Source: Rippkaea orientalis PCC 8801 (lineage in GTDB: Bacteria; Cyanobacteriota; Cyanobacteriia; Cyanobacteriales; Microcystaceae). Taken from it: a stretch of DNA of 64,000 nucleotides. A program made the position numbers and the translations under genes. The DNA is taken from contig NC_011726.1 of the NCBI RefSeq assembly GCF_000021805.1, positions 3,008,097 through 3,072,096 on the forward strand, read 5' to 3'. The notes under the pieces are model-generated. The model had not been told where the DNA came from and made no database searches. It saw only the letters and a program-made list of their open reading frames with translations. Of the stretch, positions 39,448 to 59,867 are shown one piece after another (position 1 is the stretch's first letter; every line of letters starts with the position of its first letter).

Positions 39448-39531
39448 GCGGAACTGGCGGAATTGGTAGACGCGCTAGATTCAGGTTCTAGTGTCCGCAA
39501 GGACTTTCGGGTTCAAGTCCCGAGTTCCGCA
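39448..39531 (+). tRNA. tRNA-Leu (anticodon CAG)
   Basis: This 84-base class II tRNA has acceptor arms GCGGAAC / GTTCCGC with discriminator A. The anticodon stem CTAGA / TCTAG encloses the loop TTCAGGT, so the anticodon is CAG. The long variable arm includes GTCC / GGAC. The T-arm is TCGGG-TTCAAGT-CCCGA. CCA is not encoded. It lies about 0.9 kb upstream of a Tn7-like left end; tRNA genes are known homing sites of V-K type transposons. Confidence 0.97.
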
Positions 39532-40502: not shown

Positions 40503-40664
40503 AGTTTTGGTAAAGGATCAAGAGTTGTTCCTCAATATATTCTCGATACTGACCATATTTCCCTAATTTTTCGCAATCATCCCCAAGTTATTGCTAATGC
40601 GTCCGGTCATTCAATTAACGTTACAATCATTACTGTTCAGGAACTTTTCAACGGTTATCATTGA
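40503..40664 (+). pseudogene. VapC-like PIN toxin fragment
   Basis: An open stretch encodes YILDTDHISLIFRNHPQV, then VTIITVQELFNGY and a stop. This matches the N-terminal third of VapC PIN-domain ribonucleases, with the catalytic aspartate in LDTDH and the glutamate in VQE. No start codon is evident. The rest is missing: near 40645-40655 the frame runs into tnsB sequence. It marks a deletion or insertion junction. Confidence 0.6.
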
Positions 40665-41542
40665 TAGTTATTCGGGTTGTCTGATGGGTTATTATTTAGG
40701 CTTTGTAGCGGCGGATTCCCATCGCGTGGCTTTAGCTCTACGAAATGCAATTTTACCCAAGCAAGTCAAGGAAAAATATGGCTTACAAAATGAATGGGAA
40801 CAATTCGGTATCCCTGAATATTTAGTCACCGATAGAGCCAAAGAATTTAAAAGTCATGATGCTAAACTAATTGCCATGCAGTTAGGTTTTCAGATGAAAG
40901 AAGCCTAGATATTTGCTTATTAAAACAAGCTCATCGCAAGGTACAAAAATATGGAACGATTCAGTTTGAAACGATGATTTATATGGGAAATTGTTTGAAG
41001 GACTATATAGGAGAGGAGATTTCTTTAAGATATGATCCCGAAATATTGTCACTTTGTTAGCTTATACTGCACCGAAAAATGGTGAACCGAGTGAGTTTAT
41101 CGGGGTAATTAAAGCTCGACACTTTGAGTATGAACAAATGACCTTTGATGAGTTAAAGTGGATAGTACACAAATTGAGAAGTCAATCAAAAGATCCTGAG
41201 AATATCTCGATTCTCAATGAACGATATAATCATTTGAATTTCATTGCTAAAAAACGGACAGAAAAGCGAAGAAGAAGCAAAAAAGCTCAAGATAAACGAG
41301 ATCAAGTAACGAATCAATCAACCCTTACTGAAATCTTCCCCGAAAATGCTCTTCAACCTAATAATAATTCAGAAATAATATCAGAAGAAGCCACAAAAAC
41401 CGTTAAAATGGGACGCAAATCTAAAAAGCGAATTATGACTCAACCTTTACCCCCTGAAACTAATGCTAGAGTGCGAAGACGAAGTTCTGGAATTATGACC
41501 AATATTCAGGATTGGAACGAGTATAAGAAAAATAATTGGTAA
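40645..41542 (+). pseudogene. tnsB remnant (Tn7-like element 1)
   Basis: This is a DDE transposase fragment. From 40645 the frame reads STVIIDSYSGC, LALRNAILPK and YLVTDRAKEF, covering the first two catalytic aspartates. Around 40905 it jumps to LDICLLKQAHRKVQ, skipping the third catalytic acidic residue. A frameshift near 41040-41055 leads into the C-terminal frame (FIGVIKARHFEYEQ to DWNEYKKNNW). The N-terminal DNA-binding domains are absent. The same blocks are recognisable in TnsB at 45501-47211, so homology is clear. Inactive. Confidence 0.8.
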
Positions 41543-41548
41543 ATTATC

Positions 41549-42100
41549 ATGGCTAAGGGAAATTTAGAGCAACTCAAAGTCAGTGCTAAAACGCAGTCTG
41601 AGGAAGTTAATGGTCGTAGTGCAGCGCAAAAGGCAGAAATTGAGCGAATTGGTCAAGCTGATACCTATTGTCCTTTGAGTCGGGATGAGGAGTTATTTAC
41701 TTGGTTAAATGACCAACGAGATTTACGATTATGTGGCTATATTGTGGCAACAAGAGGGTCTGGATTACCGAAAGCTTGTCAATACTACCGCATGGCTCAT
41801 GTAAAACGGCGAGGCTCTTTATTTGAGATGCCAGCAACGGTATTTTATGTGGAGATGTTGCAGAAGGGAAAGGCAACGGATTTATATCGGGCTATATTAG
41901 GGGAATTTGGACATCCTTTGTCTAATGTAGGGACGCTAAGGCATTTACGCTCACGCACTTGGGATAATTTGAAGGGTTACAGGGTGAAGATTCTGATTAT
42001 CGGAAAAGCGGATTATTTGAAGTTGGAAGCGTTTAATGAGTTAATCGATCACGATTCAATGTCGCCTTTTTTCCTTGATATACTACAATCCTCTGCTTAA
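41549..42100 (+). pseudogene. TnsC/TniB-like ATPase with both Walker motifs substituted, truncated
   Basis: This 183-residue frame aligns by eye with CAST TnsC: ELFTWLNDQRD, the Walker A position and the Walker B position. Walker A reads ATRGSGLPKAC where functional copies have GESRTGKTVAC, so the lysine and threonine are lost. Walker B reads LIIGKADYLKLEAF instead of LIIDEADRLKPETF. The C-terminal half of TnsC is absent. It follows the tnsB remnant by 6 bases, as in an intact operon. The frame is otherwise uninterrupted, so it is either a young pseudogene or a non-ATPase derivative. Confidence 0.7.
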
Positions 42101-42175: not shown

Positions 42176-43315
42176 ATGATGCAACAATTAGAACTACCTC
42201 AAATTAACGATGATGAAGATTTTGCAGAAAATAGTGAAGAATCAGAGTTTGAAACCGATAAATTAATTTATGATCCTGATAATATTAATATTGATACAAA
42301 AGAGCCAACAATTGAACAGTTACTAAGAAGAATTGATGAAGAAGCATTAGATTTAGCTCCTGATTTTCAACGTAATGCTAACCTTTGGAAAGATGAGGCT
42401 AAAAGTCGTTTAATTGAATCGATAATTATTCGGATTCCTTTACCTGCATTCTATATTGATGCAACCGATGACGATAGATGGATTGTCGTTGATGGAATTC
42501 AAAGATTATCTGCTCTTAAACAATTTGTAACTGATAAAAAATTAAGACTATCAGGATTAGAATATTTAAAGTCTTTAGAAGGAAAAAATTATGATGAAGT
42601 CGTAGAAGAAGAAAAAAGATACCAGCGTCGAATTTTAGAAACCCAAGTTACCGTTTACTTGATTAATAAAGGAACACCTCCCGAAGTTAAATATAATATT
42701 TTTAAGCGAATTAATACAGGAGGTTTACCCATGTCTCCTCAAGAAATTCGTCATGCACTCAATCCCGGGAAAGGAAATCGCTTCATTCTGAAACTTGCTG
42801 ACTCAGAAGAATTTAAAAAAGTTGTTCCATTAGGACAAAAGCGCATTATGCGAATGGATGATCGAGAATTTGTTTTAGCCTTTCTTGCTTTTATTTTAAC
42901 GAACTATCAAGAATATAAACATTATCCATCTCGCAATTTGTTTTTAACTAGAAATTTAGTTATTTTGAATAAAAAATCTCAAGAACAATTAGATGATTTG
43001 GAAAAGCTTTTTAATAAAATAATGAATACAGCATGGAATATTTTTGGCGATAATGCTTATCGAAAATTAATCAAAAATGCTTCTAGAAAACAACCCATTA
43101 ATCAAGCATTATTTGAAACTTGGTCATTTTGGTTAAGTCAACTCAGTGAGCAAGAGATTCAAATTTTAATATCAAGCAAAGAAATATTAAAACAGAATTT
43201 TATGCAGAAAATAGAAGATGATCCAGAATTTGTTACGTCAATTTCTCAAGCATCTGAAAAAGTAGAATATCGTTTTATAGAAATAGAAAAAATTATTAGA
43301 GAGGTTTTATCATGA
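42176..43315 (+). CDS. DUF262 domain protein (gene A of putative defence operon)
   Basis: This 379-residue protein has an N-terminal acidic leader, then a DUF262 (ParB/Srx-like) domain. The core motifs are LAPDFQRNANLWKDEAK, SRLIESIIIRIPLPAFYID, the nucleotide-handling DGIQRLSALKQF and FKRINTGGLPMSPQEIRHAL. It lacks the C-terminal DUF1524 HNH domain found in GmrSD-type enzymes. DUF262 proteins are frequent in anti-phage systems. It overlaps the next gene by 4 bases (ATGA), indicating translational coupling. It lies in the interval between two Tn7-like remnants. Specific role unknown. Confidence 0.75.
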   Translation: MMQQLELPQINDDEDFAENSEESEFETDKLIYDPDNINIDTKEPTIEQLLRRIDEEALDLAPDFQRNANLWKDEAKSRLIESIIIRIPLPAFYIDATDDDRWIVVDGIQRLSALKQFVTDKKLRLSGLEYLKSLEGKNYDEVVEEEKRYQRRILETQVTVYLINKGTPPEVKYNIFKRINTGGLPMSPQEIRHALNPGKGNRFILKLADSEEFKKVVPLGQKRIMRMDDREFVLAFLAFILTNYQEYKHYPSRNLFLTRNLVILNKKSQEQLDDLEKLFNKIMNTAWNIFGDNAYRKLIKNASRKQPINQALFETWSFWLSQLSEQEIQILISSKEILKQNFMQKIEDDPEFVTSISQASEKVEYRFIEIEKIIREVLS

Positions 43316-44448
43316 TTACCTACTTAAAAATAGAAAACTTTAAACCTTTTCAATCACAAGAATTTATCCTTAAACCGCTAACCTTGTTATCGGGGTTAAA
43401 TAGTACAGGGAAATCTTCAATGATTCAGGCTTTATTACTACTTAGACAATCTTATCAGCAAAAATTATTAATAGATAAAGGTTTATCTCTCAAAGGTAAT
43501 TTAGTTAATATTGGCACAGCTAAAAATGCTATGTTTGAAGGTGCATTAAAAGATGATTTAATGTCTTTTCAAATAATCTTAGAAAATCAAGAAACTTATC
43601 AATGGAGTTTTGATTATGATTTTGAGGAGAATGTAATCAGTTCCCATGCTAAAGTTTCCCAGACATCTCCTATATATCAGTCTAGTTTATTCAACCAAAA
43701 TTTTTATTATTTACAAGCAGAAAGAATTAGTCCACAAGTTTACTTTGAAATTTCAGATTATCATGTAAGGGATATGAGACAAATAGGAACAAAAGGAGAA
43801 TATACCGCTCATTTTATTTCAATTAATGAAAATGAAAAGATTATTGATGCTAAACTAAGCCATCCCAATGTAAAAAAGTTTGTCAGAGAATATGGAGAAG
43901 AACCTCAAAAAGATACTAATTTGAAGCATCAAATTGAAGCATGGATGGGTGATATTAGTCCAGATGTAGAATTAAACCTTGAATCTATTCGTGATCTTGA
44001 GTTGATGAATCTTCAATATAATTATGGGGATGAAAACTTATATCGTCCTACCAATGTCGGATTTGGAGTAACTTATGTTTTACCCATCATCACAGCCATT
44101 TTATCTGCTAAACCTGATACCCTAATTATCTTAGAAAATCCAGAAGCTCATCTTCATCCTAGAGGACAATCTCAAATCGGTCAATTAATTGCATTAGCGG
44201 CGAGTTGTGGTGTTCAAATTATTGTTGAAACTCATAGTGATCATATCTTAAATGGAATTCGTCGAATTGTTAAACAAAAAGAATTAAATGCTGAGGATGT
44301 CGTCATTTATTACTTTCAACGAGAAAAAAAAGAAGGAAAATTTCAGACAAAAGTTACTTCTCCTCAAATATATCAAAGTGGAGGAATTGATCAATGGCCA
44401 GATGGATTTTTTGATCAAGCAGAAATAGATTTAATGGAGTTGTTATAA
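43312..44448 (+). CDS. AAA ATPase of the AAA15/21-DUF3696 type (gene B)
   Basis: This 378-residue SMC/OLD-like ATPase begins ITYLKIENFKPFQSQEF. Walker A GLNSTGKSSMIQ is near residue 28 and the family-typical Walker B LIILENPEAHLHPRG near residue 278. A following H-loop is ETHSDHILNGI. The C-terminal DUF3696 region ends QWPDGFFDQAEIDLMELL. There is no TOPRIM nuclease domain. ATPases of this class power several anti-phage systems (family knowledge). The stop directly abuts the start of gene C. Confidence 0.82.
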   Translation: MITYLKIENFKPFQSQEFILKPLTLLSGLNSTGKSSMIQALLLLRQSYQQKLLIDKGLSLKGNLVNIGTAKNAMFEGALKDDLMSFQIILENQETYQWSFDYDFEENVISSHAKVSQTSPIYQSSLFNQNFYYLQAERISPQVYFEISDYHVRDMRQIGTKGEYTAHFISINENEKIIDAKLSHPNVKKFVREYGEEPQKDTNLKHQIEAWMGDISPDVELNLESIRDLELMNLQYNYGDENLYRPTNVGFGVTYVLPIITAILSAKPDTLIILENPEAHLHPRGQSQIGQLIALAASCGVQIIVETHSDHILNGIRRIVKQKELNAEDVVIYYFQREKKEGKFQTKVTSPQIYQSGGIDQWPDGFFDQAEIDLMELL

Positions 44449-45500: not shown

Positions 45501-47211
45501 ATGTCTCTCTCTCTTTCGATTCCTGATGATAGTCCTCACTCCCATCGACTTCCTTCCGATGAGATGATCACTGATGAAGTCAAGGCAAAGATAGATATTA
45601 TTCAAAGTCTCATTGAACCGTGCGATCGCATTACTTATCGTCAACGCAAAGAACAAGCGGCCAAGCAATTAGGTGTAACTATTCGGAGTGTAGAACGATT
45701 GCTCAAGAAATATCGAGAGCAAGGACTGATAGCACTGATGAAAACTCGTTCAGATAAGGGAAAAACTCGCATTGATGATGAATGGAAGGAATTTATCCTG
45801 AATACTTATAAAGAGGGAAACAAGGGTAGTAAACGCATAACCCGACATCAAGTGTTTCTCAAAGTAAAAGGGAGAGCCAAACAACTTGGCTTAAACAAAG
45901 AAGAATTTCCCAGTCATCAAACCGTTTATCGGATTTTAGATAAATTCATTGAAGAAAATGAACGGAAGAAAAAAGCGCGAAGTCCTGGATATTCGGGTTC
46001 TCGCTTAACTCACATCACCCGTCACCCGTCATGGACGCGAATTAGAGGTAGAAGGGAGTAATGATGTTTGGCAATGTGACCATACTTGCTTAGATATTAG
46101 ATTGGTCGATGAGTTTGGTGTTTTAAGCCGTCCTTGGTTAACCATTATTATTGATTCCTATTCTCGTTGCGTGATGGGCTTTTTTCTAGGATTTTATGCG
46201 CCTAGTTCCCATATCGATGCGTTAGCGTTACGTCATGCGATTTTGCCCAAATCTTACAGTTCAGACTATCAGTTAAAAAATGAGTGGAATACTTATGGAA
46301 TTCCCACTTACTACTATACTGATGGGGGCAAAGATTTTAGATCAATTCATGTGACTGAACAAGTAGCGGTTTCTCTAGGATTTAATTGTTTTCTAAGAAG
46401 CCGACCTTCTGATGGGGGAATTGTTGAGCGTTTCTTCAAAACCTTGAATAATAGCGTCTTATGCGAATTGCCCGGATATACAGGGTCAAATGTGCAACAA
46501 AGACCTAAAAATGTTGATAAAGATGCTTGTTTAAGCCTAAAAGATTTAGAAAAGATTTTGGTGAAATACATTGTTGATGAGTATAACCAAAAGCCCGATG
46601 CGCGGATGAAAAATCAGAGTCGTATCACCCGTTGGGAAGCAGGTTTACTAACAGAACCTTATCTATATGATGAACGAGAATTGGATATTGCACTGATGAA
46701 AGAAGCTAAAAGAACGCTTCAAAAATCGGGAACCTTGCAATTTGAGAATTTAACCTATCGTTCTCCTTTATTAAAAGGTCGTGAAGGCGAAAGGGTTGCT
46801 ATTCGCTATGACCCTGATGATGTTACTACTATTCTCGTTTATGAGTATTTGGATGATGGCACAGAAGCCTTTTTAGATTATGCTCATGCTCAAAATTTAG
46901 AAACTGAAAAACTATCTTACAGAGAACTTAAAGCGATTAATAAACAACTCAATCAAGAGGAGGAAGCGATTAACAATGACAAAATCTTGGATGCCATGAT
47001 GGAGCGTATGGAAATGACTGAGGAGTTAGTGAAGAAAAATCGCCAACAACGTCAGCAAAATGCTCACGAAGCGGTGAATTCTCGTCCATCTGTTACCGAA
47101 AAACTCTCTATTTCTCAACCTGATGAAGAGGACTGGGAAGATGACTCAGAGGATGAACCTTTACCGACTTATAAAGTTCAATACATGGATGATTTATTTG
47201 AAGATGATTAG
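45501..47211 (+). pseudogene. tnsB: tnsB transposase of type V-K CAST, frameshifted
   Basis: This DDE transposase is split into two frames, 45501-46061 and the remainder through 47211. The first has HTH domains: QRKEQAAKQLGVTIRSVERL and SHQTVYRILDKF. The second keeps the catalytic core: TIIIDSYSRCVMGFF, YYYTDGGKDFR and a third acidic residue in GGIVERFFKTL. The C-terminal part PGYTGSNVQQRP, EARMKNQ-like and LETEKLSYRE matches ShCAST TnsB. The frame is lost at 46016-46029, where CACCCGT is duplicated in tandem. Removing one copy gives a continuous frame through WQCDHTCLD. It was recently active by the freshness of this lesion (inference). Confidence 0.9.
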
Positions 47212-47220
47212 GAGTAAATC

Positions 47221-47856
47221 ATGACTGATTCCTCAGTAATTGACAAGTTAGCAGCAGAATTTGGTGGCTTTGCTACACCTAGTCCAGAGATTCAAGCAGA
47301 GATTCAACGATTGAGTCGCCAGCCTTATTTAGAATATGAACAGGTCAAAAATTGTCATGGTTGGCTTTATGAATTGGTACTCTCTCGCATGACGGGATTA
47401 TTGGTAGGTGAATCTCGTTCAGGAAAGACTGTGACCTGTAAATCGTTTGAGAAAAGATACAATAAGATCAAGACAGGAAATAAAAAAAGAATTAAACCCA
47501 TTGTTTATATTCAAAGTCCACAGAATTGTGGTGCTAGAGAGTTTTTTACCAAGATTCTTAAAGCATTAAATAAACCCACTAATGGTAATGTTTCAGATTT
47601 ACGAGAACGAACTTTAGATGGGTTACAAATTCATGAATGTGATCAGAGAGGATGCGAAGTTCATGGTTTAGAGTTGTTATCGAGGTGTATTAACTGTAAA
47701 AGGCTGTTTCCCATTCCTTCTAAGTGGACAGAGGGAAAGTGTCAACGTTGTTATTTGCAGTTCGCTAAGATGTCGAGGCATCAGAAAGTAATTAGCACGA
47801 AAGGTAGCGTTACCTTTAATACGAAATCCAGCTATGATAGTAAAGTAAAAATATAG
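47221..47856 (+). pseudogene. tnsC-tniQ deletion fusion (type V-K CAST)
   Basis: This 211-residue open frame joins two genes. Residues 1 to about 135 are TnsC: VGESRSGKTVTCKSF is an intact Walker A, followed by CGAREFFTKILKALN and VSDLRERTLDGL. Near nucleotide 47622-47635 the frame switches to the zinc-ribbon C-terminus of TniQ: ECDQRGCEVHGLELLS, RCINCKRLFPIPSKW, CQRCYLQFAKMSRHQKV. Walker B and the rest of TnsC plus the TniQ N-terminus are lost, so an internal in-frame deletion is the simplest explanation. It starts 9 bases after tnsB. It cannot act as a normal AAA ATPase. Confidence 0.82.
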
Positions 47857-48672: not shown

Positions 48673-49486
48673 CTATTCAGCATACAAAATTCGGTCGTTA
48701 TTTTTCTCGGCTATTTCTATCACCCGTGAGATGATCGGCTTGCGATTGTTAACTAGATTGGATATTTTGATAAATTCGGGGGAAAGTAACACTTTTTGAA
48801 TCTCGGCCTCTAGTTTTTTCCTGGCTGGAATGCTCTCCCAAAACCCTGTTAATTGTAACTCTCTTTCTACTACTGTAAAAACTTCTTGGGTTAAGGCTAC
48901 TATTTGAGCGATCGCCTGATCATCTAACTCCATGTCTGCAAAACACTCCCGTTTGAACATCCGAAAGAAGGGCATTTGTTTTTTCTTATGGAGTCCGTAG
49001 GTAGGCTCATTTTGCGCTTCTCTTACCTTCTGACGGAGCTTTTCGAGTTCCTCATAAATTTTCTGCCAGTTGTCCCTAAACGCCTCTAGAATTGCTCTAA
49101 GGGCTTCTGAGAAGGAGGCTTGCAGTTCTGGATCATCGTCTAGCTCAATGTCAATATGGTGACGTAGGGCGTGTTCTATTTCAGCGGCCTTAGTTTTAAC
49201 ACGGTTGTGTTTTTGAACCTCATTGGCAAAGTTTTCGTCTAGGATAGAAATGGGTTTAATTTTTTCGTCAATTCCCCTTGATTTAAGGTATTCATCGGTT
49301 AAGGTTCGCAATTTAGCAGGAATACCTTTCATACTCAGACGTTCATCTCGGAAGTTCTTACCCGCTAATACATTCACTTCGGTGAGTGCTTGGTAGTCTT
49401 TGATGTAGGTTAAAGCTTCTTTTGCAGGAAACAGCAGGTTAAGGCTACGGGTTAGGTTTTTAAACTTTAACATGAACTCAACGAAT
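48673..49486 (-). pseudogene. hsdR: hsdR, C-terminal fragment
   Basis: This is the 3' end of the type I restriction R subunit: TFVEFMLKFKNLTRSLN, AKEALTYIKDYQALTE, the helical C-terminal domain and IEIAEKNNDRILYAE. An open frame continues up to 49572 only because the IS left end is open by chance. The junction with the IS is at 49486/49487. It joins in frame to the middle hsdR piece ending at 56057. It would code for the C-terminal helical domain needed for complex assembly. Confidence 0.88.
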
Positions 49487-49617
49487 GTGCTATCCCTCCC
49501 CACCCTCAGCGATAGCGGGGTGGGGAGGGATAGCAAGGCAATTTGAGGACTCGATGTCCGAAAAATTGCCAAACAGAGATTTTAATGCTAACATAGTATC
49601 ATCTTTTGATAACTGCC

Positions 49618-50688
49618 ATGCTTGAAAGCCAGCCCATAACAGTTGCTTGCAAACTCCAAGTCGCCAATACACTCGCCAAAGAAATTGACGAGACAATGAT
49701 GGTGTTTGCTTGTGCCTGTGATTGGGTTAACCAAAACACTCCTGAAAAAATGACTAACAAAACGGCTATGCAATCGTTGGTTTATCAGGATGTTAGGGTT
49801 AATTTTGGGTTATCTTCTAATTTGGCGATCCAGGCAATTAGAAGGGTATGTGCTAACAGAAAAACAGCCAAGCAAAAAGGCAAAAAGGTTAAAGAGTTTA
49901 AGCCAACTTCTATCAGCTATGATGCTCGGATATTTAGCTTTAGGGAGAGTGACTGGACTGTTAGCGTCAAGCTATTAAATAGTCGCCAAAGAATTAAGCT
50001 ATTAATTGGTAATTACCAAATTGGATTACTAAAAAGTAAAAATCCAACATCCGCTACATTGGTTAAACGGAAAAGTGGCAATTATTACATTCATATTACA
50101 TTGGATGAACCAACTCAACCAGAGGCTAAAACAGATAAAGTTTTAGGGGTTGATTTGGGTAGAACGGATATAGCAACTACATCAGAAGGAGAATCATGGT
50201 CAGGAAAACAGATTACGGCTAAACGAAATCATTATGCAAAACTGAGAACGACTATTCAGAAAAAAGCCTCGAAAGGCACTAGAAGTTCACGGCGTAGATG
50301 TCGTCAGCTACTAGCACGGTTGTCGGGGAAAGAAAGGCGTTTTCAGAAGCATATTAATCATGAAATATCCCGTCAATTGGTAAATAATGCCGTTACCAAC
50401 AAACAAGCTATTGCCATTGAAGACTTAACAGGTATAAGGGAACGTACTAATAGAAAACCTAGAAGCAAAAAAAGATAAGCGTTTGGGTAATAATTGGGCG
50501 TTCTATCAGTTAAGACAATTCTTGACCTACAAGTGCATTTTAGCGGGTGTAAAACTAATATTAGTTAACCCTGCTTATACCAGCTTGAGTTGTCATAAAT
50601 GTCTTGTTATTGGTGATAGAAAGGGAAAAGGATTTAGCTGTAATAACTGCGGTAATAAATGCGATGCAGATTATAACGGCGCACAAAA
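49618..50688 (+). pseudogene. tnpB: tnpB exon 1 (RNA-guided nuclease of IS605 type), with A-run frameshift
   Basis: This is the first exon of a TnpB nuclease of about 401 residues. The RuvC aspartate is in GVDLGRTDIATTS, the glutamate in AIAIEDLTG and the last aspartate in CDADYNGAQ. The zinc ribbon CHKC...CNNCGNKC is intact. A run of seven A at 50467-50473 shifts the frame after RKPRSKK. With six A the frame continues DKRLGNNWAFYQL. The exon ends at 50688 where the group II intron begins with GTGCG. ATG 49618 is chosen over a TTG at 49606. TnpB acts as a programmable RNA-guided nuclease that aids transposon maintenance (family knowledge). Confidence 0.87.
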
Positions 50689-53297
50689 GTGCGATTCGTT
50701 CAGTCTAAACCTGGAAACAGGGGGACGACTGGCTTCTGTTAAGTAACCCTCAAAGGTAGAGTTCGCACTTTAATCCTTAACAGATGACAACTTCATAATC
50801 TTGTAAGTGAGTGTAAGTATCCTAGAAAACACAAGTCTTACTCCCTCAGTACAAGGGTAAAAGCATATTCCCCAAGGTAGAGACTAGCCATCAATCCTTG
50901 AAGCGGGAATAAAAGCGGAAAGATACTACAAGCCTTAAAAAGTGGTATCCCGTGAGCAAGTTCCTATGGATAACGAAAGTGAAGATAGCGTCCGAACCAT
51001 CGTTACGCCGAACCAGTGAAATAAGGCTGACACACTGGGAGTCCCAAACGGGCATCAGTCAGGGTGATAAGAAAATTTTTGTCGGCTTATCTGTACTACC
51101 CTAAAACTCGGTGGAAAGCATCATCCTAAAGGAACAAACCAAAGATTATGAGGAACGAAGTAACCCGTCTACATACTCTCAAACTACGGTCGATAGAATG
51201 AGTAGTCAGCTAAGACGTAACCTCTACCGAAAGGTAGGTAGTAGATGAGAAAGATTGAGTCGGAAGCTAACACCTCGCCGTAATGAAGGGGACACGCTGA
51301 CGGACTCACGGTATAACGGATTGTAGAGGTACAAGTAGTAGTGAATAAGCCTAAAACAGATTCAAAACTGAAGACTGTGGGATGTAAACCGATAACTGAG
51401 TCGCCCGAAGATATCAACGCTCAACTAAATTGGATAATGATTGATTGGGATGACTTAGAAAAGCGTGTATATAAGCTACAAAAGCGCATTTACAAAGCGT
51501 CTCGTCGTGATGATGTCAAGACAGTTCGCAGACTCCAAAAAACCCTAACAAAATCCTGGGCGGCAAAATGCCTAGCGGTGCGTCGTGTTACCCAAGATAA
51601 TCAAGGTAAAAAGACGGCTGGTGTGGATGGTGTGAAATCACTGACCCCAAAGCAACGTCTAAACCTCATAGATAAACTAAAATTGGGTACGAAGGTCAAA
51701 CCCACTCGGAGAGTATGGATTCCGAAACCTGGGACTGAGGAGAAAAGACCTTTAGGAATACCGACCATGTATGACCGCGCATTGCAAGGGCTTGTCAAAC
51801 TGGCATTAGAACCAGAATGGGAAGCTAAATTTGAACCTAACAGTTATGGGTTCAGACCAGGACGCTCATGTCAAGATGCCATCGGAGCAATATTCCTAGC
51901 AATAAACAAAAAAGCCAAATATGTGCTTGATGCTGATATTGCCAAATGTTTCGACCGCATTGACCATGAACAACTCCTAAATAAATTAAATACCTATCCG
52001 ACCCTACGGAAACAAATCCGAGCTTGGCTAAAAGCTGGAGTCATGGATGGAAAAGAGTTGTTCCCAACATCTGAGGGTACGCCACAAGGAGGGGTTATAT
52101 CACCTCTACTAGCAAACATAGCCCTCCATGGGATGGAAAACGAAATCAATAAACTAGCTGAAACATTCGATATGAGAGGTCCCGACGGTAAACTACTAGG
52201 CAAGAGGGACAAAAGAAAATCAGTTAGTCTTATTCGTTACGCCGATGACTTCGTAATCCTCCACGAAGACATAACCATTGTCCAAAGATGTAAAGAGTTT
52301 ATCTCTGAATGGTTAAAAGACATGGGATTGGAATTGAAACCAAGTAAAACCCGATTAGCCCATACATTAGAGGAGTACAACAAAGAAAAACCTGGCTTTG
52401 ATTTCCTCGGATTTAACGTCCGTCAACACAAAGTAGGAAAGTTTAACTCTGGAAGGGTAAAAGGAAAGCTATTAGGTTTTAAGACCATTATAACTCCAAG
52501 CAAGGAAAGCCAGAAAAGACACTACAAAAAGATTGCAGAAACAATAGAAAAGCACAAAGGGAAAGCCCAGGCAATTCTAATAAGAAACCTTAACCCAATA
52601 ATCAGAGGATGGTGCAATTATTTCTCAACCGTAGTAAGTCAAAAAGTCTTCGAGAGACTATGGCATTTAACTGTCTGGAAACTAATCAAATGGGGTTTGA
52701 AACGCCATCGAAACAAAGGAAGGAAATTTATAGTTTCCAAATATTTCCAAAATATAGGTGGTAATAATTGGGCATTCGCAACCAGGCAAGAAGGTAAAAA
52801 CCCGATGCGGTTACTACAACATAGCGATACAACAATCACCCGCTATGTAAAAGTTAAAGACGATGCCAGTCCATACAACGGCGACCTAATTTATTGGAGT
52901 TCAAGAATGGGCAAACACCCTGAGATGTCAACGCGAACGGCATTACTGCTTAAAAAGCAAAAAGGGAAATGCGCTCACTGCGGATTGTTCTTTAAAGAGG
53001 GAGATGTAATTGAACTTGACCACATCATTCCTAAGTCAAAAGGCGGAAAGAATGAATATAAAAACTGGCAACTTCTCCATCGACATTGCCATGATGAAAA
53101 GACCAGAAATGATGGAAGTTTAGATAGGAAACTATCACATAAATCCATCAAATTCCCTAAGAATTATCGATGGGAAAACGATATTCTGGTGACGTGCTAA
53201 TGACAATAGCCGTTCTACTGAGGAGCCGTGTGATGGGAAACTATCAAGCACGGTTTTGGAGAGCAGTGGAGGGGGTGACTCCTTCACTGACTTTAAT
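50689..53297 (+). mobile_element. Group II intron, copy 1
   Basis: The 2609-base intron starts with the canonical GTGCG and ends ...CTTTAAT. The 5' 650 bases are non-coding ribozyme domains I-III. The maturase lies in domain IV. Domain V is visible at about 53223-53257 (GAGCCGTG ... CACGGTTTTG) and domain VI at about 53258-53297. It is inserted in tnpB right after the last catalytic aspartate. The next base, 53298, begins an identical intron, so there is no exon sequence between the copies. Confidence 0.92.
51341..53200 (+). CDS. ltrA: Group II intron reverse transcriptase/maturase (copy 1)
   Basis: This 619-residue intron-encoded protein starts at GTG 51341. It has RT domains with the catalytic LIRYADDFVIL near residue 297 and earlier motifs GVKSLTPKQR, GTPQGGVISPLLAN. 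A maturase (X) domain follows (about 360-490, GWCNYFSTVVSQKVF). A C-terminal HNH endonuclease (about 543-590) shows CAHCGLFF, ELDHIIPKSKGG and HRHCHDEKT. The protein promotes splicing and retrohoming of the intron RNA. All catalytic motifs are present. Confidence 0.95.
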   Translation: MNKPKTDSKLKTVGCKPITESPEDINAQLNWIMIDWDDLEKRVYKLQKRIYKASRRDDVKTVRRLQKTLTKSWAAKCLAVRRVTQDNQGKKTAGVDGVKSLTPKQRLNLIDKLKLGTKVKPTRRVWIPKPGTEEKRPLGIPTMYDRALQGLVKLALEPEWEAKFEPNSYGFRPGRSCQDAIGAIFLAINKKAKYVLDADIAKCFDRIDHEQLLNKLNTYPTLRKQIRAWLKAGVMDGKELFPTSEGTPQGGVISPLLANIALHGMENEINKLAETFDMRGPDGKLLGKRDKRKSVSLIRYADDFVILHEDITIVQRCKEFISEWLKDMGLELKPSKTRLAHTLEEYNKEKPGFDFLGFNVRQHKVGKFNSGRVKGKLLGFKTIITPSKESQKRHYKKIAETIEKHKGKAQAILIRNLNPIIRGWCNYFSTVVSQKVFERLWHLTVWKLIKWGLKRHRNKGRKFIVSKYFQNIGGNNWAFATRQEGKNPMRLLQHSDTTITRYVKVKDDASPYNGDLIYWSSRMGKHPEMSTRTALLLKKQKGKCAHCGLFFKEGDVIELDHIIPKSKGGKNEYKNWQLLHRHCHDEKTRNDGSLDRKLSHKSIKFPKNYRWENDILVTC

Positions 53298-55906
53298 GTG
53301 CGATTCGTTCAGTCTAAACCTGGAAACAGGGGGACGACTGGCTTCTGTTAAGTAACCCTCAAAGGTAGAGTTCGCACTTTAATCCTTAACAGATGACAAC
53401 TTCATAATCTTGTAAGTGAGTGTAAGTATCCTAGAAAACACAAGTCTTACTCCCTCAGTACAAGGGTAAAAGCATATTCCCCAAGGTAGAGACTAGCCAT
53501 CAATCCTTGAAGCGGGAATAAAAGCGGAAAGATACTACAAGCCTTAAAAAGTGGTATCCCGTGAGCAAGTTCCTATGGATAACGAAAGTGAAGATAGCGT
53601 CCGAACCATCGTTACGCCGAACCAGTGAAATAAGGCTGACACACTGGGAGTCCCAAACGGGCATCAGTCAGGGTGATAAGAAAATTTTTGTCGGCTTATC
53701 TGTACTACCCTAAAACTCGGTGGAAAGCATCATCCTAAAGGAACAAACCAAAGATTATGAGGAACGAAGTAACCCGTCTACATACTCTCAAACTACGGTC
53801 GATAGAATGAGTAGTCAGCTAAGACGTAACCTCTACCGAAAGGTAGGTAGTAGATGAGAAAGATTGAGTCGGAAGCTAACACCTCGCCGTAATGAAGGGG
53901 ACACGCTGACGGACTCACGGTATAACGGATTGTAGAGGTACAAGTAGTAGTGAATAAGCCTAAAACAGATTCAAAACTGAAGACTGTGGGATGTAAACCG
54001 ATAACTGAGTCGCCCGAAGATATCAACGCTCAACTAAATTGGATAATGATTGATTGGGATGACTTAGAAAAGCGTGTATATAAGCTACAAAAGCGCATTT
54101 ACAAAGCGTCTCGTCGTGATGATGTCAAGACAGTTCGCAGACTCCAAAAAACCCTAACAAAATCCTGGGCGGCAAAATGCCTAGCGGTGCGTCGTGTTAC
54201 CCAAGATAATCAAGGTAAAAAGACGGCTGGTGTGGATGGTGTGAAATCACTGACCCCAAAGCAACGTCTAAACCTCATAGATAAACTAAAATTGGGTACG
54301 AAGGTCAAACCCACTCGGAGAGTATGGATTCCGAAACCTGGGACTGAGGAGAAAAGACCTTTAGGAATACCGACCATGTATGACCGCGCATTGCAAGGGC
54401 TTGTCAAACTGGCATTAGAACCAGAATGGGAAGCTAAATTTGAACCTAACAGTTATGGGTTCAGACCAGGACGCTCATGTCAAGATGCCATCGGAGCAAT
54501 ATTCCTAGCAATAAACAAAAAAGCCAAATATGTGCTTGATGCTGATATTGCCAAATGTTTCGACCGCATTGACCATGAACAACTCCTAAATAAATTAAAT
54601 ACCTATCCGACCCTACGGAAACAAATCCGAGCTTGGCTAAAAGCTGGAGTCATGGATGGAAAAGAGTTGTTCCCAACATCTGAGGGTACGCCACAAGGAG
54701 GGGTTATATCACCTCTACTAGCAAACATAGCCCTCCATGGGATGGAAAACGAAATCAATAAACTAGCTGAAACATTCGATATGAGAGGTCCCGACGGTAA
54801 ACTACTAGGCAAGAGGGACAAAAGAAAATCAGTTAGTCTTATTCGTTACGCCGATGACTTCGTAATCCTCCACGAAGACATAACCATTGTCCAAAGATGT
54901 AAAGAGTTTATCTCTGAATGGTTAAAAGACATGGGATTGGAATTGAAACCAAGTAAAACCCGATTAGCCCATACATTAGAGGAGTACAACAAAGAAAAAC
55001 CTGGCTTTGATTTCCTCGGATTTAACGTCCGTCAACACAAAGTAGGAAAGTTTAACTCTGGAAGGGTAAAAGGAAAGCTATTAGGTTTTAAGACCATTAT
55101 AACTCCAAGCAAGGAAAGCCAGAAAAGACACTACAAAAAGATTGCAGAAACAATAGAAAAGCACAAAGGGAAAGCCCAGGCAATTCTAATAAGAAACCTT
55201 AACCCAATAATCAGAGGATGGTGCAATTATTTCTCAACCGTAGTAAGTCAAAAAGTCTTCGAGAGACTATGGCATTTAACTGTCTGGAAACTAATCAAAT
55301 GGGGTTTGAAACGCCATCGAAACAAAGGAAGGAAATTTATAGTTTCCAAATATTTCCAAAATATAGGTGGTAATAATTGGGCATTCGCAACCAGGCAAGA
55401 AGGTAAAAACCCGATGCGGTTACTACAACATAGCGATACAACAATCACCCGCTATGTAAAAGTTAAAGACGATGCCAGTCCATACAACGGCGACCTAATT
55501 TATTGGAGTTCAAGAATGGGCAAACACCCTGAGATGTCAACGCGAACGGCATTACTGCTTAAAAAGCAAAAAGGGAAATGCGCTCACTGCGGATTGTTCT
55601 TTAAAGAGGGAGATGTAATTGAACTTGACCACATCATTCCTAAGTCAAAAGGCGGAAAGAATGAATATAAAAACTGGCAACTTCTCCATCGACATTGCCA
55701 TGATGAAAAGACCAGAAATGATGGAAGTTTAGATAGGAAACTATCACATAAATCCATCAAATTCCCTAAGAATTATCGATGGGAAAACGATATTCTGGTG
55801 ACGTGCTAATGACAATAGCCGTTCTACTGAGGAGCCGTGTGATGGGAAACTATCAAGCACGGTTTTGGAGAGCAGTGGAGGGGGTGACTCCTTCACTGAC
55901 TTTAAT
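53298..55906 (+). mobile_element. Group II intron, copy 2, abutting copy 1
   Basis: This is a second 2609-base intron, identical to copy 1 wherever I compared them and encoding an identical protein. It begins with GTGCG at 53298 directly after the last base of copy 1. It ends at 55906, where tnpB exon 2 resumes. The simplest origin is reinsertion at the same exon-intron junction, or unequal exchange. Confidence 0.9.
53950..55809 (+). CDS. ltrA: Group II intron reverse transcriptase/maturase (copy 2)
   Basis: This 619-residue protein is identical to that at 51341-53200, with the same GTG start, YADD motif and HNH domain. Being identical, the duplicate is recent or is homogenised. Each copy may serve both introns in trans. 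Confidence 0.94.
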   Translation: MNKPKTDSKLKTVGCKPITESPEDINAQLNWIMIDWDDLEKRVYKLQKRIYKASRRDDVKTVRRLQKTLTKSWAAKCLAVRRVTQDNQGKKTAGVDGVKSLTPKQRLNLIDKLKLGTKVKPTRRVWIPKPGTEEKRPLGIPTMYDRALQGLVKLALEPEWEAKFEPNSYGFRPGRSCQDAIGAIFLAINKKAKYVLDADIAKCFDRIDHEQLLNKLNTYPTLRKQIRAWLKAGVMDGKELFPTSEGTPQGGVISPLLANIALHGMENEINKLAETFDMRGPDGKLLGKRDKRKSVSLIRYADDFVILHEDITIVQRCKEFISEWLKDMGLELKPSKTRLAHTLEEYNKEKPGFDFLGFNVRQHKVGKFNSGRVKGKLLGFKTIITPSKESQKRHYKKIAETIEKHKGKAQAILIRNLNPIIRGWCNYFSTVVSQKVFERLWHLTVWKLIKWGLKRHRNKGRKFIVSKYFQNIGGNNWAFATRQEGKNPMRLLQHSDTTITRYVKVKDDASPYNGDLIYWSSRMGKHPEMSTRTALLLKKQKGKCAHCGLFFKEGDVIELDHIIPKSKGGKNEYKNWQLLHRHCHDEKTRNDGSLDRKLSHKSIKFPKNYRWENDILVTC

Positions 55907-56042
55907 TATAAAGGCATTGGGGGCGATTATAAACCGCCCTGGAGGTTCAGGTCTTTCCTGTAAGCTAAAAACTAATGTGCAATACATTCAGCTTAGCTTA
56001 TTTGAAGGCTTAGGGCTACTGAAAACCTCGACCTCAGCGTAG
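55907..56042 (+). pseudogene. tnpB: tnpB exon 2 (C-terminus)
   Basis: After removal of both introns the frame reads ...NGAQ|NIKALGAIINRPGGSGLSC and ends at TAG 56040-56042. This is the usual TnpB tail (NI-x-x-LG), so the splice boundaries are confirmed by the protein. The region also overlaps the right end, where the guide (omega) RNA of such elements is normally encoded. Confidence 0.85.
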
Positions 56043-56056
56043 CGGGTCGAGGTAGT

Positions 56057-56210
56057 TTATAGCGAATATCTTCGTCATAAAACAGGTCAAAAAAGGCATT
56101 ATGATCCGTCAAGTCGGTCAGTCCGTATTCTGCTAAGAAGGTTAAAATAGTCCGATAATCATCTTCTAATTGGCGAATTTCTTCTTCTGGAAAGCTTAGA
56201 GCCTCTTTAA
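56057..56210 (-). pseudogene. hsdR: hsdR, middle fragment
   Basis: The minus strand reads EALSFPEEEIRQLEDDY, then TFLAEYGLTDLTDHNAFF and DLFYDEDIRYK, in phase with the fragments on both sides. It is bounded by the IS605-type element (49487-56056) and by the IS at 56211-57696. TTTAA at 56206-56210 is one copy of the 5-bp target duplication. Confidence 0.88.
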
Positions 56211-56347
56211 CTCACATCTTGCACCAAGAAAAGTTGATATGAGAAGCGATGCCTAAAATCCTCATCTGATGGGGGTTAACAAAAGTTCTCTTTTTAAAAG
56301 AGAGAACAACAATTAAGAACTAACAAAAACCCAACGCACTCTTTATT

Positions 56348-56749
56348 TTACTCCACCCTATGGCCAGGCTTTTCTTCATCAGGATATAAATCTAACCAAC
56401 TTTCATATAAATCTTCAATAGCCGAAGTTAACTGGTCAATTTTACTTCTTCTAATAACAGCGTTAACACCATCTATATGTGCTTGACTTCCGGCTTTTCC
56501 CAAATGTTTAAAACGGGAAAATTCCCCTTTTTTATTAGCTTTTGGAAAGACGGCTGATGATGCCTTAAGTTGATAATACCAATAACGATATTTCGCGCCT
56601 TTAGCTCGATACCTCGCTATATAACAATCACGAGGAGCTATCCATCCTGAAGCCTCAATTTCAGATATTTCCCGTTTTAAAGAGTCTATAGCTTCTCTAA
56701 TGCGGTCTGCTCGTTGAGTTTTTTCTAGTTCACTCTCAGTCCTTGGCAT
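56348..56749 (-). CDS. Passenger hypothetical protein inside the IS
   Basis: This 133-residue protein has a helical N-terminus (TQRADRIREAIDSLKREI), a middle core (IAPRDCYIARYR, KYRYWYYQLKASSAVFP) and KHLGKAGSQAHIDGVNA. It belongs to an uncharacterised family I recall as recurring in cyanobacteria. It is complete and oriented away from the transposase, within the inverted repeats. It could be a transposition accessory or a cargo gene. Function unknown. Confidence 0.6.
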   Translation of the reverse strand: MPRTESELEKTQRADRIREAIDSLKREISEIEASGWIAPRDCYIARYRAKGAKYRYWYYQLKASSAVFPKANKKGEFSRFKHLGKAGSQAHIDGVNAVIRRSKIDQLTSAIEDLYESWLDLYPDEEKPGHRVE

Positions 56750-56790
56750 TTTCCATTTCTATCTAAGGTAACTATGGTAATATAGTTCTC

Positions 56791-57695
56791 TTGTTTAATA
56801 AGATAACGATGTTTCCACAGACTATTTTACCTCAAGTTGCGGAGCGAACTGTTCCGAGGTCTCCTCGGAACCAGCACGCGCACCAAGCAGAGGAATTACT
56901 CTCCACTTTAAAAGAGTTAATGCCTACAATTTATCAAAAAGAAACCCTAGAATCTATTTTAGGATTATTGTTGGATGGACAAGGAAATGCAGTTCCTCAT
57001 CATTGTCAGACTAAATCAGAAAGTGCTATTAGTCGTTTTTTAAATCATTATAATTGGTCAACTCGTTCTCTAATAAAGACTATTCGTTCTTTTATTTTAA
57101 ATCTTATTTTATCCGAAAGAGGAAAAGGAAGAAAACCCATTTTACAAGTTATTCTAGATTTAACAACTCTTGAAAAAGTGGGTAAGTTTCCTCATCTGAA
57201 AGACTTGGTTAGGGTCTATAATCATAAGAAGGGTTTACACGCAAGATGTGAGTCTATCTACAGGGTTTAAATTTTCCAGTATTTGTCTCATGGGTATGGC
57301 TGAAACGTAATGGGAAACGAGTTAAACGATTTGTCATTTCAACGAAACCCATGAAGGAAAAAACTATCATTAGATGGGGAAAATATCGATGGCCAATAGA
57401 GGGTTTCTTTAAAACCGCAAAACATCAGTTTAGTCTTCACCGTTTTGGGCAAAAAACTTTATTAGGGGTTTATCGTTGGTTAATTCTTTCTTTCCTTTCT
57501 TATATGTTAGCCTACTGGGTCTATTTACACAATAGTAACTTTGATGATTTAGACTGGTATGATTCAGCCCAAAAAGCCTTAGTTTTGCTACTTCCTCACA
57601 TTTTACTCCTTTCTCTTCTCAAGAAGTTAAAGTTACTAAATCCCTGGTTTTATGAACACGGTTTGGAACTTTGTCTCGTCAGGTGCAAGATGTGA
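56791..57695 (+). pseudogene. Disrupted DDE transposase
   Basis: The N-terminal frame (to 57270) has SRFLNHYNWSTRSL and a DDE-type strand VILDLTTLEKVGKF. The C-terminal frame (from 57351) has RWGKYRWPIEGFFKTAKHQF with a catalytic-type glutamate, and QKTLLGVYRWL. The central catalytic section between them is missing and out of frame at about 57240-57350. A palindrome (56851-56871) near the start adds odd residues (TVPRSPRNQ). The transposase cannot be functional; the element would need help in trans. Confidence 0.8.
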
Positions 57696-57696
57696 G

Positions 57697-59867
57697 TTTA
57701 ATTTCTTTCTGCTCCCGTTCATCGTAATTATCAATGGCATCCTTGAGGTGGTGTCCGATACCGACATAATCCACCACAAAGCCCTTATCCTTATCTATTC
57801 CTCCGACTCGGTTGACACGGGCGATCGCTTGCAGAAGGTTATGGGACTGAATTACCTTATCTAAGTACATTACCTGCTCTACAGGGGCATCAAACCCTGT
57901 CAGCAGCATATTATTAACGATAACAATGCCCATGTCTCCCGTAATGCCTTCATCTTCTGCGTCAAAGGGCAGTTTAAAGCTTTTAATCGTGTTTTCGTGC
58001 TGTGTGGGGTTACTATGGGCTTTGAGGTGGGGTAAGTCGTTATGTCCCCCAGAAATGATCACATCGGTTTTCAGTTTCTTCAATACATCCAGGTTTAGCC
58101 CGTGGGGGTTGAACTGTTGCAGTTGGGTGATCGCTTCTACTAACGCTTCGTCTATATGTTGTTTGTACCGTACCGCAGCCTCGCGGGATGTAGCAACCAC
58201 TTGGGCTTTATAACCATTGGGAAAGATATGATCGAGATAATGCTGTACCATATCTTTTGCTTTGGCTGCAATGGTGGAATGGGCTTCTAGGTAGGCATCC
58301 CGTGAACCATAGCCTAAAATCTGTAATCGTTCTGATAGGTTATACTCGCTAAAAACGTCCTCAAAGGCGTTGTCCATCCCTTCCTTATCAGGGCTGCGTT
58401 GTGAGTTCGCCCTGTATAGACGATTTCTAGGGTCACTCCGTCCTCAATTGACTCACGCATGGTGTACTTATCGATATAGTCCCCGAAGACTTTTTCGGTT
58501 TTATCAATGGGGGTTCCTGTGTAGCCAATGCGAGAGGCGTAGGGGAGGGCTTTATCTAAGTTAGCCCCCAGTAAGGCATATTGTGATCGGTGTGCCTCAT
58601 CGGTCATGATCAAGATGTTACTACTGGGGTTTAACTCTGGGAAGGTTTCTTGCAAGTCTCGTTCTTGGAATTTGTGGATCATAGCCATGACGAGATCGGA
58701 GGAGTCACTGCGGAGGAGTCCCTTGAGTTTGGCGATACTATCGGCAGGTTTGACGGTAAAACCCACATTCTGCCCTGTTTCGGCGAGTTGCTGTTCTAGT
58801 TGGGTGCGATCGGTGATAAAGACGACTTTCCACTGGCAGAGGTTAGGATGACGGTACATGGCTCGTACCATAAACATCATAGTCAGGGACTTTCCTGAGC
58901 CTTGGGTATGCCAAATAATACCGCTTCGTTCCCTTGGTGTTTTCCCTTCTATAAGTCGTTCAACGGCTTTTTTAACTGCCCTAAACTGTTGGTAACGTCC
59001 CACGATTTTGATGGTTTTTCCCTTGTTGTTGACGGAGAATAGGGTAAAGTTGCGGATAATTTCTAATAGGTTCTCAGGGGCTAACATTCCCGCTACGAGT
59101 CGCTGCTGATCGTTGGGGGAACTGCTACCATGTTCTAAGTCGTCTAGGGTACGAGGATAGGGATCTGCCCAACGGTAAAAGTATTTTTCGGTGTGGGTGG
59201 TAATAGTCCCGAATTTTGCCTCATTGCGACAGGTTGCGACGATAAACTGGTTATAAAAGAATAGGGGTTGACTTCTTTCTCCTTTTGCCCCTCGTTGTTC
59301 ACTGTAGCGCAATAGTTGATCAATGGCTTCGGGGATGGGTTCTTTTACTTTAGGTGACTTACATTCGATGACGACGACGGGCAAACCGTTTAAAAAGAGG
59401 ACAATATCGGGGATGATGTGGTTTTCTGTGCCAAGAATGCGGACTTTAAACTGACAGACGGCAATAAAGCGGTTATTTTCTCGTTTTTCAAAGTCGATAA
59501 AGCGGACGGTGGGGCTTTTTTCTTCGGTGTTGCGGTTCTCGGAGACGCTGCTATTTTCTTGTAGGAGTTTAAAAATGTGGCGGTTATTTTCGAGTAAGTT
59601 GGTACTGGGGAAGTTAGCGGTGAGGTTTTTAACGGTTTCTTCTATTTGATCATCTTCTATCCAAGGGTTAATAACTTTAAGTTGTTCTCGTAATACTGGC
59701 AGCATCACTACTTCGGTAAAGCTTTCCCTAAAGGTTTGTTGAGGGGTTTGGGTTCTCTCTAAGTCTAATATTTCCCACCCTAAACCATACATTTGATCAA
59801 GCATCGGCTTTTCAACAGAGTTCCGTTCATCCATTTTGATAGGTTTAGGAGTTTTGTCGGTTTTCAT
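57697..59867 (-). pseudogene. hsdR: hsdR, N-terminal fragment with frameshift
   Basis: This is the R subunit of a type I restriction-modification system. The nuclease motif is PDIVLFLNGLPVVVIECKSP. SF2 helicase Walker A is WHTQGSGKSLTMM and the DEAH box ILIMTDEAHRSQY. Motif IV-VI follow, with LLQAIARVNRVGG. The frame breaks near 58388-58393: after GRTHNAAL the frame shifts, and reading continues DKEGMDNAFEDVFSEY in the other frame to 57697. ATG 59867 is the natural start. Total reassembled length over all fragments is about 1044 residues, as expected for HsdR. Confidence 0.92.

Follow-up and report, generated by a model that had tools for sequence, protein, structure and literature searches.

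Bacterial twintrons are described as nested arrangements in the passages of PMC4649490, PMC2882425 and PMC4424553 that bear on them. According to the twintron sections of PMC4649490 and PMC2882425, those of Trichodesmium and Thermosynechococcus are, like the introns reported here, cyanobacterial group II introns with one inserted relative to another, and sequential removal was shown for the Trichodesmium twintron; there the inner intron splits the outer one, whereas the copies described below are complete and abut each other. Methanosarcina acetivorans has arrays, which part of PMC4424553 summarises, whose intron copies likewise served as repeated homing sites, but these arrays are nested, contain up to five introns and have no coding exons, in contrast to a dimer within a coding gene. 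Two introns likewise lie side by side at one site in fungal mitochondrial cox3, for which the relevant portion of PMC8393795 proposes ratchet-like or composite splicing; these are group I ribozymes of mitochondria, and ours are group II introns of a bacterium. Finally, IStrons likewise combine a self-splicing intron with a DNA transposon, although, in the account that PMC4227781 gives of their structure, the intron is of group I and forms part of the element, whereas here a group II intron is inserted in tnpB.

No spacer-free group II intron dimer from bacteria was recognised in the open-access literature that we searched, mostly by listing, and the available portions of PMC8919778, PMC7923331 and PMC2828477 contain no tandem case. 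Here we analyse such a dimer in the window, by which we mean the whole stretch of 64,000 nucleotides of Rippkaea orientalis PCC 8801 given above. A dimer of this kind pulls apart the contacts of a group II intron with its exons: at the internal junction the 5' contact is missing, and probably the 3' contact too. It is thus a natural substrate for asking whether pairing between exon-binding (EBS) and intron-binding (IBS) sites sets the order of splicing, whether IBS3 has a role in splicing or in mobility only, and whether reverse transcriptases of this type jump between templates in cells.

Two abutting copies of one intron in a tnpB gene

The preliminary description had reported two identical group II introns of 2609 bp lying head to tail with no exon between them, each starting with GTGCG and ending with CTTTAAT, and both statements hold. 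A scripted base-by-base comparison at an offset of 2609 gave zero mismatches across 50689-53297, and the match ends where A at 50688 faces T at 53297 on one side and G at 53298 faces T at 55907 on the other. Since the match stops at those edges, the repeat unit is the exact intron, from GTGCG to CTTTAAT, with zero exon bases between the copies (50689-53297 and 53298-55906), which are identical at every base; an exact repeat of 2609 bp cannot be of chance origin. Both copies display the terminal signature of group II introns, GUGYG at the 5' end and AY at the 3' end, as GTGCG...TTTAAT. A nested twintron was considered for this array and rejected, both copies being complete and abutting and neither being interrupted. 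The identity of the host gene as tnpB, a second dimer locus and an asymmetry in exon binding are added here to the preliminary description. The features of the element are the following:

49478..56060, + strand: IS200/605-type tnpB element carrying the tandem, its edges being the limits of identity with the second copy, except for a few differing bases at 49491-49496
49478..49540, + strand: left-end hairpin; hairpins like it occur at other places in the genome, in five cases next to a Y1 transposase match
49606..50688, + strand: tnpB exon 1 (OrfB_IS605, Cas12f1-like_TNB)
50689..53297, + strand: intron copy 1, 2609 nt, GTGCG...TTTAAT
51341..53200, + strand: intron-encoded protein 1 (RVT_N, RVT_1, GIIM maturase, HNH; YADD present)
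53221..53297, + strand: domains V-VI of copy 1 (RF00029), with a bulged A at 53290 and 7 nt after it
53297..53298, + strand: intron-intron junction TTTAAT/GTGCG, without any exon base (offset comparison)
53298..55906, + strand: intron copy 2, identical to copy 1 (offset comparison)
53950..55809, + strand: intron-encoded protein 2, identical to protein 1 (ORF translation)
55830..55906, + strand: domains V-VI of copy 2 (RF00029), with a bulged A at 55899
55907..56042, + strand: tnpB exon 2, whose first base, T, is the probable IBS3; exon joining completes the codon AA/T in D-Y-N-G-A-Q-N-I
56016..56060, + strand: right-end hairpin of the element (comparison with the second copy, hairpin search)

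Each intron copy has a catalytic domain V and, near its 3' end, a domain VI with a bulged A. The Rfam model RF00029 matches domains V-VI of both copies with 57.9 bits each (gathering threshold 40), and the minimum-energy fold of domain VI leaves the bulged A with 7 nt on its 3' side. For the first 657 nt, the minimum-energy fold does not clearly surpass those of 20 shuffled sequences (z -1.46), three of which folded equally well. The intron ORFs encode the same 619-aa protein in both copies, a complete reverse transcriptase/maturase/HNH protein of the kind found in mobile group II introns (RVT_1, GIIM, HNH), which scores 339.7 bits against TIGR04416 (curated cut-off 300). Its closest solved relative is the maturase of PDB 6me0 (residues 27-598, E 1.6e-107), which we take to be the TeI4h intron complex; this likeness is at the protein level only and has no bearing on the tandem arrangement.

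The introns lie inside the codon AA/T of TnpB, within ...CDADYNGAQ-N-IKALG..., at a point of the C-terminal region that presumably neighbours the RuvC-III motif. In the second copy of the element the exons, joined exactly, give an open TnpB of 405 aa. The reading frame of exon 1 in the window is broken near 50467, where an A run has 7 residues instead of the 6 of the open second copy; this break may be real or may be a sequencing error. As the sequence stands, the broken frame means that splicing in the window would not give a full-length TnpB product.

The tnpB gene and the hairpins at both ends place the element with the IS200/605 type. None of the 14 Y1_Tnp matches of the genome falls within it (C3:3057574-3064156); tnpB-only members of the IS200/605 family lack a Y1 transposase of their own. 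Seven further places in the genome share the left-end hairpin, one being the window hairpin on the opposite strand and five lying no more than about 100 bases from a Y1_Tnp match. The left-end hairpin of the window (49488-49535) forms a longer palindrome than its counterpart in the second copy, the two differing in a short patch of bases.

Exon recognition and predicted order of splicing

The sequences involved in exon recognition are found at these positions:

50677..50681, + strand: IBS2 CGGCG, exon positions -12 to -8
50683..50688, + strand: IBS1 ACAAAA, exon positions -6 to -1
51006..51010, + strand: EBS2 CGCCG of copy 1 (copy 2: 53615-53619), intron nt 318-322
51077..51082, + strand: EBS1 TTTTGT of copy 1 (copy 2: 53686-53691), intron nt 389-394, between the arms GATAAG/CTTATC
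51116, + strand: probable EBS3, A428 of copy 1 (copy 2: 53725), from an alignment column chosen post hoc

Exon 1 pairs with the intron as is typical of group II, at six of six positions for EBS1-IBS1 and five of five for EBS2-IBS2. These assignments were evaluated in a set of 16 introns, composed of that of the window and 15 non-redundant relatives with both intron ends found; L025, which is the same contig stretch as L006, and L001-L005, from the window's own genome, were left out. EBS1 paired with its own exon at 80 of 96 positions (mean of shuffled sets 67, with 0/5000 reaching 80) and EBS2 at 70 of 80 (shuffled mean 59.2, with 0/5000 reaching 70). For the pairing of EBS3 with the first base of exon 2, intron nucleotide 428 was the best column, chosen post hoc, with 12 Watson-Crick and 3 wobble pairs among the 16 introns and 7 of 5000 shuffles doing equally well. 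Since the column was taken as best after the fact and the permutation count is uncorrected for this choice, the placement of EBS3 is to be read as suggestive. With the same reservation the pair A428-T55907, which has a counterpart, wobble included, in 15/16 introns, would be in keeping with subgroup IIB, defined in part of PMC3123198 by EBS3-IBS3 pairing in the coordination loop. G is the first base of exon 2 in 0 of the 16 introns. A local fold forms the EBS1 stem, and the whole 657-nt fold pairs both EBS1 and EBS2 internally, so that the exposure of their loops rests on the comparison between introns.

The internal junction differs from the outer sites on both sides: TTTAAT pairs with EBS1 at three of six positions in register, and the probable EBS3, A428, faces G and forms no pair. 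An absent IBS1 for copy 2 and a mismatched EBS3 for copy 1 at this junction would leave two paths, namely splicing of copy 1 followed by copy 2, or use of the outer pair of sites. Copy 1, the sole copy with a matched 5' exon, would splice first and thereby join exon 1 to the first base of copy 2, generating an ordinary precursor of exon 1, copy 2 and exon 2; copy 2 would then splice in its turn and restore the tnpB message without loss of exon sequence. The predicted first step carries the EBS3 mismatch. In RmInt1, a IIB intron, splicing still reached 98% when IBS3 was changed to A, whereas homing is said to require IBS3, according to the sections of PMC3123198 on these experiments. The preliminary description had proposed that both introns could be removed singly, which would apply only in this order, for the 5' site of copy 2 itself, TTTAAT, fits EBS1 at 3/6 positions and copy 2 would gain a proper 5' site only once copy 1 has spliced. 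Judging from the pairings, the outer splice sites are the only fully matched pair, and excision of the composite in one step is possible; we regard such direct use of the outer sites as a side path. Removal of copy 1 before copy 2 is a prediction that we consider highly probable, as we do the homing of a single intron into tnpB as the initial event and the later copying of the element.

The second dimer and the origin of the tandem

The genome (4 contigs, 4.79 Mb) carries the intron four times, with 100% identity among the copies, arranged as two spacer-free dimers, and no further copy was found in it. The second dimer is located at C3:1463534-1468751, 1.6 Mb from that of the window. A genome search with RF00029 recovered the four copies and one match below the cut-off (35.1 bits, C3:1719701).

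The sequences flanking the two dimers belong to copies of the same element, with 99.4% identity by BLAST over 1211 bp upstream and full identity over 154 bp downstream, and no match was seen beyond the element edges in the 4 kb compared on each side. Only one other copy of the element was found, and it holds the second dimer; a DNA search with the 1211-bp upstream part detected no intron-free copy of the tnpB exon in the genome. The upstream cores of the two element copies differ by one substitution and one A-run length, the remaining differences clustering at the left edge; with so few differences, dating the introns against tnpB by divergence was dropped. A clean empty site for the second element copy was also sought, and none was found: the upstream gene is kept in 6/6 congeners, and the downstream flank has no match in the 3.4-kb loci.

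Because both dimers lie inside copies of one element, the simplest history for the two loci is a single event that formed the tandem, with transposition of the whole element afterwards. The shared end hairpins beside Y1 matches and the 14 Y1_Tnp matches of the genome suggest that the element could move in trans.

An assembly artefact or a miscount of copies, such as a one-plus-three distribution of the introns over the two loci, is improbable in our estimation. Identical copies can be placed only by reads at least as long as the 6.6-kb element, and the tnpB difference near 50467 sits in an A run, which is typical of long-read errors; the chromosome is nonetheless one contig of 4.68 Mb among four, which suggests long reads, and both loci show the same arrangement within different outer flanks. 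A second tandem in a second element copy makes a local artefact less likely.

Taken as a whole, the explanation that we favour, and hold to be rather likely, is that one mobile group IIB-like intron homed singly into tnpB, that the dimer formed there, that the element was copied and that splicing is ordered. The second intron copy would then have entered 5' of the first in an RNA-mediated step, reverse splicing into the exon 1-intron junction being the most likely route, and the whole element would later have been copied to the second locus by a Y1 transposase acting in trans. If this is true, tnpB elements would serve as vehicles for compound introns and for their spread.

The route by which the second copy was added is a separate matter, and for reverse splicing we put the chances at about even. 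It is favoured because it needs only one known reaction. The preliminary description had placed the insertion of the newer copy at 50688/50689, and this would be feasible, as IBS1 and IBS2 are intact there (6/6 and 5/5 pairs); the first base after the cut is G instead of T, in mismatch with the probable EBS3 at A428, and IBS3 is needed for the homing of RmInt1 in the part of PMC3123198 that treats it. On these pairings the EBS3 mismatch disfavours ordinary homing at the exon 1-intron junction. No near relative with a single intron that could polarise the history was found by a search of 98 relatives with the whole intron, in which 65 gave some match and the best full-length match was 75%.

Template jumping would produce the dimer in one insertion: in target-primed reverse transcription, the enzyme would read one intron RNA through to its 5' end and continue from the 3' end of another. 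It would need no second target site, would avoid the EBS3 mismatch and fits the finding that all intron copies are in dimers. After full reverse splicing, on the other side, the 5' end of the intron is attached to exon DNA rather than free, which counts against such a jump. LtrA in vitro switched from the 5' end of intron RNA to second and third intron RNAs, and its switches to exon 1 DNA were in many cases seamless, but some switch junctions carried extra nucleotides (all in the template-switching sections of PMC3280974), of which the window junction has none. We consider this route unlikely, though a serious competitor of reverse splicing, and equally unlikely the extended view that the dimer records end-to-end template jumping in a bacterium and was kept as a self-ordering unit whose copy 2 would be silent until copy 1 splices. 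A circular, head-to-tail intron RNA could also have given rise to the dimer, either through reverse transcription that went past one full turn or through recombination of its DNA with a single intron already in place. Head-to-tail circles are included among the models and products of Ll.LtrB in the part of PMC6248898 concerned, and homologous recombination of such a circle would yield an exact tandem; since the same part describes circles and not their reinsertion, we assign this route a small probability. Reverse splicing, template jumping and an intron circle are not separated by the sequence that they would leave.

The dimer could itself be mobile, with splicing at the outer sites freeing a composite of 5.2 kb, which would then home as one piece into further tnpB copies. 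This accords with the presence of dimers at both loci and of no monomer in the genome, and with the outer sites being the only fully matched pair. The flanking element is shared by both dimers, however, and its transposition takes fewer steps, so that we regard a mobile dimer as very improbable and retain copying of the element, after addition of the second intron copy, as the origin of the two loci.

Related introns and the neighbourhood of the element

No tandem junction was found elsewhere in 670 cyanobacterial genomes (G000-G669), IMG/VR or plasmids, which are weak negatives. A junction pattern ending in GTGCGAY occurred in 1/388 genomes of the order, that of the window, and the slightly wider pattern ending in GTGYG in 1/386 genomes of the phylum, again that of the window. 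As only 50 of 99 related loci contain the domain V core of this pattern, and short-read or draft assemblies collapse such tandems, this prevalence says little about the true frequency of dimers.

A 300-nt junction query against plasmids returned 15 records, none covering 80% of the query, two of which match on both sides of the junction point. In the first, a Nostoc plasmid (H22; L150, 7892-8188), the 5' end of an intron is fused to domains V-VI by an internal deletion, and in the second, a Nodularia plasmid (H28), a single intron end is followed by other DNA; both were rejected. The deleted intron of L150 lies head to head with another, inverted intron start about 27 bp away. The one IMG/VR viral match (L107) was dismissed as chance, having neither an intron-protein nor an RF00029 match, and in L035 a GTGTG lies a few bases past the intron end and does not abut it. 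What looked like a partial tandem in a Chamaesiphon MAG (L030, 2462-5262) reads as two related group II introns, the one inserted into domain I of the other, a self-type twintron.

Exons were translated for 14 relatives, in seven of which the intron was judged by eye to lie in tnpB. Pfam was run on the exons of those seven and of L047, that is, on 8/14: L014, L026, L027 and L036 passed the cut-off of a tnpB domain, L006 and L028 matched below it and L033 gave no match. In L047 (5361-7852), a Richelia MAG, a related intron interrupts dnaN.

On the - strand, parts resembling type I restriction HsdR flank the tnpB element of the window (C-terminal-like at 48673-49572, N-terminal and middle at 57679-59867), and an hsdR gene appears to have been split by this element and another IS. 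The transposase-bearing IS stretch at 56205-57300 has two matches of 100% (rounded) on another contig of the same genome and was for this reason probably mobile recently. Further upstream on the + strand, two sets of ORFs, each with TnsB-like (rve, Mu-transpos_C) and TniB/TnsC-like members and apparently incomplete, lie at 40591-42100 and 45501-47856, both downstream of a tRNA at 39448-39531; they are perhaps remnants of Tn7-like transposons. Between the two, at 42176-44448 (+ strand), a GmrSD_N protein is encoded beside an AAA_15/DUF3696 ATPase, a pair of possible defence genes.
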